Positions 20,820 to 25,116 of a DNA stretch of 64,000 nucleotides are shown piece by piece. The notes below the pieces were generated by a model. That model was not told the DNA's origin, did not search any database, and saw only the letters and a program-made list of their open reading frames with translations. Made by a program: the position numbers and the translations under genes. This DNA comes from Dethiobacter alkaliphilus (GTDB taxonomy: Bacteria; Bacillota; Dethiobacteria; DTU022; UBA8154). The stretch is taken from positions 62,001 through 126,000 of the forward strand of contig JAENYV010000004.1 of the NCBI GenBank assembly GCA_016841605.1, in the 5' to 3' direction. Numbering within the stretch: the stretch's first letter is position 1; the number at the start of each line of letters is the position of its first letter.

Positions 20820-22091
20820 CTAACTGGGATCAATGACAGTGCCCATGAAGAGGATGGTATCTGTTTCTTGATCGTGAATGAGGAAAAAGAAAGGACGGTC
20901 TGCCTTCATATTAAAACTGGTTGCCGGAGCGCCTGTCAATCTCATTTCTACGGAAGTGGCTGCTGCCGCTTCAGTTCCTTTTTCATCAACCTCAATAAAG
21001 GCCTTATGCTTCACTTCACTGATAAAAAGTCTCGGATTTTCTTCCCAGGAAACCATATTAAAGAAATCAGCCCTGTCCCGGTCAAAAGCAATTTCCATCC
21101 CCAGAGCTTTGAGGACTTCATTTAAAGATTTCTCATATTCCAGGGAAAACTTGGGGAGGTAAAAGCTTCCTTCTGCCGGACTGAAGACATTACGCCATTG
21201 CCCCCAGTTTTTACCGGCAAAAGTATGGAAGAATTCCTGCAGACTGGAATTCTTCGCCGGCAGAAAAACATACATAGCTATCTTTTCTTGCTCACCGTAT
21301 GGAAGTCGAACAGCCTGAAAAGCTTCTTCCTCGTAATAAGCCAATTCCCCCGAACGGAACATAAACGGTACCGTTTTTACTTCATCTCCGGGAAGATAAA
21401 AATTGTCGTTGCGGGTGTCTTCTTCGTCAAAGGCTTCGCTCCACTCTCCTTGGAAATAGATGGCGTTGATTAAAAAGAGGACGGTTAAAGGGTCGATGGG
21501 CGGTTCGATAAGATCCTCAATAAGCCCGTCAGTGCATTCACTGACATACTTGTTTATTCTTCCGGCTGCTTCGGGAGAATTGAAATCCAGTTCACTGATG
21601 GAAGCATGGTAATATGCTTCGTTGCGTTCAACAAATTCGGGGTCAAATTGCATTCCTTCACGCATCCAGAGGGAATTGGCCATGCGGAGCTTCACAGAAG
21701 GGTCTAAATGCTGGAGCATGTAGAGCAAGGCCTGATTGTTTTCATTAAACCTTTCCAGTTCAATTCCCTCAATTCCCAGAACATCCGCCATCGCTTCCTG
21801 AGTTTCCTCCCGCGCGCCGTTATAGGTCATGGCCAGGGCCAGGGCAATACTTGTGGGAGAGATAATGATTCCCTTGTTTTCTTCCAGGAGCCCGGCAAAC
21901 AATTTCATCCCCAATTGGTTGGCTGAGCCGGAAAGAGCCGGATCAAATGAATTAAGCACTTCTTCTTTTGGCTTGGGCATCATATTTTCTTCACCCCTTA
22001 CTGTTCCCCGACAGCCTGATGCAAGAAGACTAAGGGCCAACAGGAATAACATCATCACTGTCAACAGGCGACGGCTTCTTTTCATTTTCAT
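20820..22091 (-). CDS. Serpin family protein, predicted lipoprotein
   Basis: Lipobox LLASGC; EVDEKGTEAAAATSVEM reactive-loop hinge; ADRPFFFLIHDQETDTILFMGTVIDP C-terminus. Confidence 0.95.
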   Translation of the reverse strand: MKMKRSRRLLTVMMLFLLALSLLASGCRGTVRGEENMMPKPKEEVLNSFDPALSGSANQLGMKLFAGLLEENKGIIISPTSIALALAMTYNGAREETQEAMADVLGIEGIELERFNENNQALLYMLQHLDPSVKLRMANSLWMREGMQFDPEFVERNEAYYHASISELDFNSPEAAGRINKYVSECTDGLIEDLIEPPIDPLTVLFLINAIYFQGEWSEAFDEEDTRNDNFYLPGDEVKTVPFMFRSGELAYYEEEAFQAVRLPYGEQEKIAMYVFLPAKNSSLQEFFHTFAGKNWGQWRNVFSPAEGSFYLPKFSLEYEKSLNEVLKALGMEIAFDRDRADFFNMVSWEENPRLFISEVKHKAFIEVDEKGTEAAAATSVEMRLTGAPATSFNMKADRPFFFLIHDQETDTILFMGTVIDPS

Positions 22092-22254: not shown

Positions 22255-23043
22255 ATGGAATATACAGTGAAAAAGCTGAGCCGGATGGCTAATGTCAGCG
22301 CCAGGACGCTGAGATATTATGATGAGATAGGAATTCTTAAGCCGGCTGGAATTAACTCGTCAGGATATCGTATCTACGGTCAGGCCGAGGTTGACAGGCT
22401 GCAGCAGATTCTTTTCTACCGGGAGCTTGATGTCAGTCTGGAGAGTATTAAAGAAATAATAGCTGCGCCCTCCTTCGATCGCGTCAAAGCACTGAGAGGA
22501 CACCGTGAAAAGCTTCTTGAAAAAAGAGAGCGATTGGATTTGTTGATTAATAGTATTGACAAAACAATTGCCTCCATTGAAGGGAGAATTACCATGACTG
22601 ATCCGGAAAAATTTGAGGGTTTTAAACAAAAATTGATTAATGACAACGAAAAAAAGTATGGTGACGAAATTCGTCAAAAATATGGTGACGAAGCTGTTAA
22701 TAAATTGAATGAGAAGCTGAAAAGTATGACACTGGAACAATATGACGAGGCTGTGAAGCTTGGAAAGGAAGTTATGGAAATGCTTCATGCCGCCTTTAAA
22801 ACAGGTGACCCCGGCAGCGAATTGGCCCAAAAAGCGGCGGATCTGCATCGCCGGTGGCTAAGCTGTTATTGGGACAGCTACACCAAAGAAGCTCATGCGG
22901 GAGTTGCACGGATGTACGTGGATGATGAAAGATTTACAGCCTATTATGATAAGAAACAACCCGGGTTGGCGGCATTTTTGCGGGATGCAGTCCTCATCTA
23001 TACGGGAAGAATAAATGATTTGAACAGTAATGAAAACCAATAG
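22255..23043 (+). CDS. MerR family regulator with TipAS antibiotic-recognition domain
   Basis: MEYTVKKLSRMANVSARTLRYYDEIGILKPAGINSSGYRIYGQAEVDRLQQI; TipAS-like C-terminus. Confidence 0.93.
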   Translation: MEYTVKKLSRMANVSARTLRYYDEIGILKPAGINSSGYRIYGQAEVDRLQQILFYRELDVSLESIKEIIAAPSFDRVKALRGHREKLLEKRERLDLLINSIDKTIASIEGRITMTDPEKFEGFKQKLINDNEKKYGDEIRQKYGDEAVNKLNEKLKSMTLEQYDEAVKLGKEVMEMLHAAFKTGDPGSELAQKAADLHRRWLSCYWDSYTKEAHAGVARMYVDDERFTAYYDKKQPGLAAFLRDAVLIYTGRINDLNSNENQ

Positions 23044-23628: not shown

Positions 23629-23657
23629 TTGACAGTACTTGAGATCATTACTATAAT
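23629..23657 (+). promoter_or_regulatory. Perfect sigma70/sigmaA consensus promoter
   Basis: TTGACA-17 bp-TATAAT. Confidence 0.85.
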
Positions 23658-23702
23658 GAAAGCGTTGCAGTATTGCCATTAAGCACGGAAGGAGTTGCTG
23701 AA

Positions 23703-23738
23703 ATGTCGGTAAAATTTGTTGAGGTGATCTCCGACTAA
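23703..23738 (+). CDS. Putative 11-aa leader peptide (MSVKFVEVISD)
   Basis: AAGGAG RBS 8 nt before ATG; short uORF right after the consensus promoter. Confidence 0.5.
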   Translation: MSVKFVEVISD

Positions 23739-23901
23739 TTAAATAGGGCACAGATATGCAAAACGGCTTTAAGGCTTAATTGTTCCATGTGCTTTTAATA
23801 AGCCTTATTAAGCTTTATTTTGTGTTTTCTGTGCAGACTTCTTTCGAGCAACCTGAATCGTGTGTCTTTTAATTTGCAGCAGTATTTAATCAGCATCATC
23901 A

Positions 23902-23927
23902 GCACGCATTGGTAGCGTGTTTTTTTA
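23902..23927 (+). terminator. Terminator-like hairpin within the rsgA leader (1)
   Basis: CACGC-attggta-GCGTG followed by T7. Confidence 0.7.
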
Positions 23928-23986
23928 TTGCTTTTCTTCAATACAAGGTAAAAAGGGCACACAAAAAAGTACGATTATTATATAAA

Positions 23987-24018
23987 CCCGCAGGTGGTCG
24001 ATATCTGCGGGATTTTTA
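23987..24018 (+). terminator. Terminator-like hairpin within the rsgA leader (2)
   Basis: CCCGCAG-gtggtcgatat-CTGCGGG followed by ATTTTTAT. Confidence 0.7.
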
Positions 24019-24051
24019 TACTCTAAAATAATAAAGGATGGATTTGTAACA

Positions 24052-25116
24052 ATGACTATAGAAGATTATGGATGGGATGAACATTTTGTCCGGGAGTGGA
24101 AAGAAAAATCGACCGGAAAAATGTTTCCGGGAAGAATAATAGCCGACTATGGGCAGATGCTGCGTGTGACTGCCGATGCGGGTGAGCTTCTTGTAAACAG
24201 GCCCGTACAGAAGTTTGATAATGATCTGCAAATGGCGGTAGGCGACTGGGTAGCCCTGGAATCTCCCCCAGAAACCGATCAGGTATGCGTCCGTTTTGTT
24301 CTTGCCAGGAAAACAAAATTTTCGCGGGCTGCTGCAGGAATTGCAGTCAAAGAACAGGTTGTAGCCGCAAACATTGATTATGTTTTTCTTCTTCAGTCTT
24401 TAAACAGGGATTTCAACATGCGCAGATTGGAAAGGTACCTGATCGCCACATGGGAAAGCGGAGCCATACCTGTTGTTGTGCTGACCAAGACCGATTACTG
24501 TGACGATGTGGCAGGTAAAAGAGACGTTGCCTGCCACACGGCACCGGGTGTGGAAGTTCACGCCATAAGCTGTGTAACCGGAGAAGGTATCGAAGGAATA
24601 CGAAAATACTTGGGACAGGGCAAAACTATTGCCTTTCTTGGTTCTTCGGGCGTCGGTAAATCAACGCTGGTAAATACGCTGGCAGGAGAGGAATTATTGA
24701 AAACCGGAGCTATTCGTGAGAATGACAGCCGGGGCAGACATACTACCACACACAGGGAAATTGTTCTCTTGAGCGGGGGCGGACTAATTCTGGATACGCC
24801 CGGGATGAGGTCCTTATCGCTCTGGGAGGCGGATACGGGCATGGAGGTTATGTTCGGCGATATCGAAGAGCTGATCAAGCTCTGCCGTTTCCATGACTGC
24901 AAACATCACAATGAACCGGGATGTGCCGTCAGAGAAGCACTGCATGACGGGACGCTGGATAGGCAAAGATGGGATAGCTGGTTGAAGCTGCAAAAAGAGT
25001 TGACACACATTGAGGCCAAGAAGGAAGGCAAGCTGCGGCTGAAGGAGAAGCAGTCGGGGAGGCAGTTTGCCAAAATAAAAAAAGAACTCTATAAAGGGAG
25101 AAAGAAAAGATCATAG
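24052..25116 (+). CDS. rsgA: Ribosome small subunit-dependent GTPase A (RsgA/YloQ family)
   Basis: Circularly permuted GTPase: LTKTD, FLGSSGVGKSTLVNTLAG, DTPGMR, then CRFHDCKHHNEPGCAV zinc motif. Confidence 0.95.
   Translation: MTIEDYGWDEHFVREWKEKSTGKMFPGRIIADYGQMLRVTADAGELLVNRPVQKFDNDLQMAVGDWVALESPPETDQVCVRFVLARKTKFSRAAAGIAVKEQVVAANIDYVFLLQSLNRDFNMRRLERYLIATWESGAIPVVVLTKTDYCDDVAGKRDVACHTAPGVEVHAISCVTGEGIEGIRKYLGQGKTIAFLGSSGVGKSTLVNTLAGEELLKTGAIRENDSRGRHTTTHREIVLLSGGGLILDTPGMRSLSLWEADTGMEVMFGDIEELIKLCRFHDCKHHNEPGCAVREALHDGTLDRQRWDSWLKLQKELTHIEAKKEGKLRLKEKQSGRQFAKIKKELYKGRKKRS

Follow-up and report, generated by a model that had tools for sequence, protein, structure and literature searches.

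The window analysed here, a 64,000-nucleotide stretch of contig JAENYV010000004.1 from Dethiobacter alkaliphilus, carries at 24052..25116 (+) a gene for a 354-aa GTPase of the RsgA family (Pfam RsgA_GTPase, PF03193, 2.8e-50), in agreement with the family assignment made in an earlier note on this DNA. The nearest solved structures to the protein are those of RsgA, its domain and zinc site are intact, and the C-terminal zinc-site residues, present in its sequence as CRFHDCKHHNEPGCAV, are conserved in the protein alignment. The genome contains two RsgA genes, and the two proteins are 32% identical. The housekeeping rsgA (G000:C8) adjoins rpe and a PASTA-kinase-like open reading frame in a prkC-rsgA-rpe arrangement. 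In a tree of 50 proteins, the window RsgA fell into a clade of approximately 350-aa proteins apart from housekeeping RsgA with a support of 100/100; we name this accessory paralog clade RsgA2. The prkC-rsgA-rpe copy elsewhere, the 32% identity and the separate clade rule out that the window gene is the housekeeping rsgA. The earlier note had envisaged a sensor on the ribosome-assembly GTPase itself; the target is instead an accessory paralog, and the system is therefore better compared with inducible paralogs like HflXr than with a sensor that governs a housekeeping factor.

The distribution of RsgA2 is patchy, with members in 83 of 399 genomes of the phylum (E below 1e-60). Relatives are also borne on plasmids: a Streptomyces plasmid RsgA lies inside the RsgA2 clade of the 50-protein tree, and on the Lysinibacillus fusiformis plasmid pMGMM7 rsgA2 is directly followed by the fosfomycin-resistance gene fosM. 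Close to rsgA2, the window encodes a MerR regulator with a TipAS antibiotic-recognition domain (PF07739, 6e-39; 22255-23043, +). TipAS domains bind thiopeptides. A MerR/TipA relative stands directly after rsgA2 at one other locus (L203), and in the genome G002 another has been retained near the remnant of rsgA2, so that the proximity of the two genes may be a fitting, if weak, association. The window also encodes a lipoprotein-like serpin (PF00079, 4.5e-112; 20820-22091, −), a kind of protein uncommon in bacteria.

Upstream of rsgA2 lies a leader of 390 nt, all parts of which are on the forward strand. It begins with a sigma-70 promoter, TTGACA-17-TATAAT, at 23629..23657 that matches the consensus in 12 of 12 positions. 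The Shine-Dalgarno (SD) sequence GGAAGGAG (23687..23694) is followed by GTTGCT and by an 11-codon upstream open reading frame (uORF), MSVKFVEVISD (23703..23738, with its ATG at 23703). Between the uORF and a conserved motif, a hairpin designated SL1 (23748..23834) forms by long-range pairing of GCACAGA (23748-23754) with TCTGTGC (23828-23834) and encloses a TAAGGCTTA/TAAGCCTTA stem; its predicted energy is −30.8 kcal/mol, with a z score of −5.8 against mononucleotide shuffles. The motif CTTCTTTCGAGCAACCTGAATCGTGT (23838..23863) comes next, then intrinsic terminator 1, AGCACGC-ATTGGTA-GCGTGTT with T7 (23901..23926), and then a second terminator-like hairpin, CCCGCAGGTGGTCGATATCTGCGGG followed by ATTTTTAT, with a 10-bp stem (23987..24019). 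About 125 nt separate terminator 1 from rsgA2. The promoter some 390 nt before the gene, the ribosome-binding site with its 11-codon reading frame, the long-range pairing with an inner stem, and the T7 hairpin with a second U-tract hairpin had all been pointed out in the earlier note, and each was located as described.

Folding of the whole leader, which the earlier note had proposed as a check, gave a structure more stable than those of shuffled sequences (z −4.0), and none of 100 dinucleotide shuffles was as stable. Two terminators were found in the leader versus 0.5 expected from shuffles. No Rfam family matched the leader at its gathering threshold, the His_leader match being sub-threshold at 26.5 versus 49 bits, and no promoter-like site was found on the + strand between 23927 and 24052.

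Leaders of the same type were found in five lineages, namely the window, L005, L004, L034 and G002 (locus L040, G002:C66). Four of them have an intact rsgA2 and one a remnant. The RsgA2 proteins of L005, L004 and L034 are 81%, 70% and 64% identical to that of the window, and G002 belongs to the same genus. Wherever a close ortholog has a complete start of the gene and its upstream region could be read, a leader lies just before rsgA2. The earlier note had named a lack of uORF and hairpins before orthologous rsgA genes as an observation that would refute its proposal; they are present in four other lineages. All five leaders have in the same order a TTGACA promoter, an SD sequence, an 11-codon uORF, the nearly invariant 21-nt motif TTTCGAGCAACCTGAAWCGTG, and a CACGC-GGTA-GCGTG-T5-7 terminator, in which the stem occurs in all five and the GGTA loop in most. 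In G002, only the C-terminal 105 aa of the gene product are left and the leader is kept, with one conserved motif position lost (C to A); such decay is as expected of a leader without its gene, here in a single case. A covariance model of the window-type element (R1) matched only the window genome and its sister among the 399 phylum genomes, and a blastn search of plasmids with the motif and terminator gave no match. Motif matches at two further loci (L039 and L042) lie inside genes and were discarded as chance.

The length of the uORF is fixed at 11 codons though most other leader sequence diverges. The encoded peptides are MSVKFVEVISD, MSVKDARVISG, MSVKDARVIFG, MTVKNAGVGVN and MKRVSMAVKTV, and the GGTG of codons 7-8 is invariant among them. 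Past the codon-8 GTG the peptide is poorly conserved, so the comparison does not establish a specific arrest peptide. SL1 folds in four of the five leaders, where GCACAGA/TCTGTGC varies once to GCACAGG/CCTGTGC, a change on both sides, besides G-U variants. It is missing in L034, in which the motif begins about a dozen nucleotides after the uORF stop, so SL1 resembles an insertion that does not alter the geometry between uORF and motif, and its absence from this ortholog rules it out as the core of a switch. The second hairpin is likewise present in four of the five (in L005, L040 and L004 besides the window) and absent in L034.

The conserved motif is complementary to terminator 1. It can form twelve pairs with it, CGTG with CACG of the 5′ arm, ACC with GGT of the loop, and GC and CG with the 3′ arm. 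Across the five sequences 94.9% of the motif:terminator cells were paired, compared with at most 61.4% when the partner was slid. These pairs are nearly invariant and scarcely vary among the five leaders, and the complementarity therefore rests on conservation and not on covariation. In L034, the motif is without one C and the terminator loop is without the partner G. The antiterminator and the terminator are near-isoenergetic in the window (−9.8 versus −8.3 kcal/mol) and at G059 (−9.6 versus −10.8); at G005 and L034 the antiterminator as drawn falls short of the terminator by several kcal. Taken singly, the energy of the antiterminator duplex was not significant against shuffled motifs (P 0.10-0.32), and pairing of the motif with the second hairpin was suggestive and not significant. 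These data make the motif a candidate for the natural antiterminator of terminator 1. AGCAAC of the motif can also pair with the GUUGCU that follows the uORF SD. This duplex with the ribosome-binding region reaches −18.8 kcal/mol in the window (shuffle P 0.10), and the corresponding energies were not significant across the sequences (P 0.10-0.68). The ribosome-binding region is the best candidate for an anti-antiterminator, and it would be masked by a ribosome halted on the first codons.

The same order of parts has been proven to work as a three-way switch in the vmlR leader of Bacillus subtilis (PMC9226507). Like the window leader, that of vmlR has a promoter, an SD-preceded uORF and an intrinsic terminator before a ribosome-acting protein, and it has an anti-antiterminator and an antiterminator, for which the window leader offers candidates. 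The likeness is one of layout and not of motif sequence, and vmlR differs in its uORF of three codons (MIN) and in its target, an ABC-F ATPase. A NusG-type TTCTTT stands after SL1 in the window. The sequence at this place upstream of the terminator, where vmlR-type leaders have the NusG pause motif TTNTTT, is TTCTTT in the window and G002 only, and TTCTTA, CTCTTT and CTTTTT in the other three leaders.

By analogy with vmlR, the window leader may also be a three-way switch. In the basal state, the 11-codon uORF would be translated quickly and its ribosome-binding region could pair with the motif; with the motif occupied, terminator 1 would form, backed up by the second terminator, and rsgA2 mRNA would be scarce. 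A ribosome held on the first uORF codons, presumably by a ribosome-targeting antibiotic or a similar stress, would leave the motif free to pair as an antiterminator with both arms and the loop of terminator 1, and RNA polymerase would then read into rsgA2.

Upstream regions were taken from about 98 RsgA2 genes and searched for uORFs of 5-30 codons with an SD match of 6 or more. Such SD-linked uORFs were present in 28 of 97 leaders versus 3.8 expected from shuffles, approximately a sevenfold excess, and about two thirds of the examined leaders are without a strong one. The largest group, with 18 aligned loci, has an 18-codon uORF about 110 nt before the gene, for example MFKTFNAEIAVKGEVAAE and MLNNSTVEIVINGEVDTK. 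Codons 13-15 of this uORF include GGGGAGG. Its pairing partner, a CCTCCC that follows the uORF, can instead bind the rsgA2 SD, and codons 8-11 pair with a stretch before that SD. The pairing between the codons and the 3′ partner was stronger for a leader's own sequence than for swapped ones (mean −6.8 versus −4.8, permutation P 0.0003, with sequences that are partly related). This leader looks like a translation attenuator that is unrelated in sequence to the transcription attenuator proposed for the window. Completion of the uORF would release CCTCCC, which could then hide the rsgA2 SD, and a ribosome held early would keep CCTCCC locked and the SD open. For both leader types, early arrest on the uORF would thus lead to expression. 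The logic resembles that of erm-type translation attenuators, in which the position of the ribosome on the uORF hides or exposes the SD of the gene; the 18-codon leaders differ from these in a three-segment logic on the uORF codons, and the window leader differs in acting through termination rather than SD sequestration.

A regular expression for the tripeptide EIV matched 27 of 98 leaders versus 2.2 in shuffles, a count to be read with the post hoc choice of the expression and with some matched uORFs probably not being the functional one. A purely peptide-level reading of EIV in the 18-codon uORFs is weakened by the co-variation of its codons with their 3′ partner. The EVIS of the window uORF was rejected as an instance of this motif, since its E is not conserved in the window-type orthologs and only the codon-8 GTG is kept.

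A covariance model of the 18-codon leader (R2), run on the 399 genomes, matched in 30 of them, most of the matches lying just upstream of RsgA2. In a further run, all three matches in genomes that neither the model nor the earlier sample had included preceded RsgA2, a held-out set of three matches only. Other matches precede a GNAT acetyltransferase (L188, L190, L194 and L195), an RNHCP-domain protein (L191, L193 and L196) or a PQ-loop-like protein (L189). Several of the GNAT and RNHCP uORFs are 11 codons long with EIV at codons 8-10, for example MKKNYKSEIVR, MTKYFQEEIVR and the TTG-started KKYNTPEIVG, and this recurrence keeps a peptide reading of EIV open. Three matches (L197-L199) were discarded as weak or in coding sequence. 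At one locus (L200, G175:C83), an orphan 18-codon leader has no gene directly behind it.

The findings make it likely that the 390-nt leader attenuates transcription of the accessory rsgA2 under the control of ribosomes, and the comparison of sequences supports such ribosome-mediated attenuation well. The uORF-linked premature termination suggested in the earlier note is borne out in part: the conserved uORF, motif and terminator, the motif:terminator complementarity and the unrelated uORF leaders on distant RsgA2 genes speak for it, and the suggestion has to be amended in that SL1 is not the core and the target is accessory. An attenuator that senses a ligand other than the ribosome is an unlikely alternative, in which RsgA2, another protein or a metabolite would bind the 21-nt motif and control terminator 1 and the uORF would be incidental. 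The motif is more conserved than its pairing needs, the middle TGAA being unpaired in the model, and the RsgA fold binds rRNA; the fixed 11-codon length and strong SD of the uORF in five lineages, the unrelated uORF leaders on other RsgA2 genes and the lack of an Rfam family at gathering threshold argue against it. We regard as rather improbable that two ordinary terminators simply lower rsgA2 expression by constitutive partial termination with no switch, because the conserved uORF, the terminator-complementary motif and the SD-sequestering leaders of distant orthologs would be left unexplained, even though the terminators are in tandem and the second has no evident antiterminator except the non-significant pairing with the motif. 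Very unlikely is that the uORF and terminators form a small RNA or a neighbouring unit and that rsgA2 has its own downstream promoter, as the distance between terminator 1 and the gene, the leader kept in G002 and the orphan leader in G175 might suggest, given that the downstream interval holds no promoter-like site and that the leader adjoins rsgA2 in each close ortholog that could be read.

Attenuation thus appears to be a family-wide phenomenon of RsgA2 with at least two leader designs. A literature search for RsgA with attenuation, uORF or Term-seq, which covered few subscription papers, found nothing relevant. The device is of a known kind, the target and the sequence elements are new, and as far as we found attenuation is undescribed for the RsgA family. 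A close parallel is HflXr of Listeria monocytogenes, an accessory ribosome-GTPase paralog under uORF-attenuator control that gives resistance to lincomycin and erythromycin (PMC6310831). Its leader, rli80, likewise combines a short uORF (14 aa) with a conditional terminator. HflXr is a GTPase that splits ribosomes, with the arrest motif RLR in its uORF and a demonstrated response to lincomycin/erythromycin, whereas RsgA2 is of the 30S assembly type and is known from sequence; neither the five uORFs of the window type nor the aligned uORFs of 18 codons contain an RLR motif. Among the RsgA paralogs of Streptomyces coelicolor, SCO6149, which is activated by WblC, rises on tetracycline and SCO5211 does not (PMC7157823). 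SCO6149 is comparable to RsgA2 as an RsgA/EngC paralog inducible by a translation inhibitor, and it differs in being controlled by a transcription factor (WblC/WhiB7) rather than a leader.

RsgA acts at the tRNA sites of the 30S subunit and releases RbfA (PMC3669203). Expression conditional on ribosome stalling is a strong hint that the product handles stalled or damaged ribosomes, and RsgA2 would be made when ribosomes stall and would presumably act on small subunits or stalled ribosomes. Two unrelated uORF attenuators on accessory RsgA genes across Bacillota, together with the antibiotic-inducible Streptomyces paralog, lead us to predict that RsgA2 is a small-subunit stress or resistance factor, a role that, to our knowledge, this family has not been given before. 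More tentatively, RsgA2 may be an inducible ribosome-protection or rescue factor against stress acting on the 30S subunit or the PTC and may belong with the GNAT and RNHCP proteins, whose genes have related uORF leaders of their own with E-I-V at around codons 8-10, to a Bacillota regulon for translation stress that is wired in cis and parallels the actinomycete WblC regulon in function. The leaders are ready reporters for translation stress, and GNAT and RNHCP are two further candidate stress proteins.

In large genomes of family f29 and their neighbours (L065-L069 and L077), strong intrinsic terminators stand before rsgA2 in several leaders, for example GCCGCCGGAACA-ATT-TGTTCCGGCGGC-T5 at −93 in L066, and these may represent a possible third type of attenuator.
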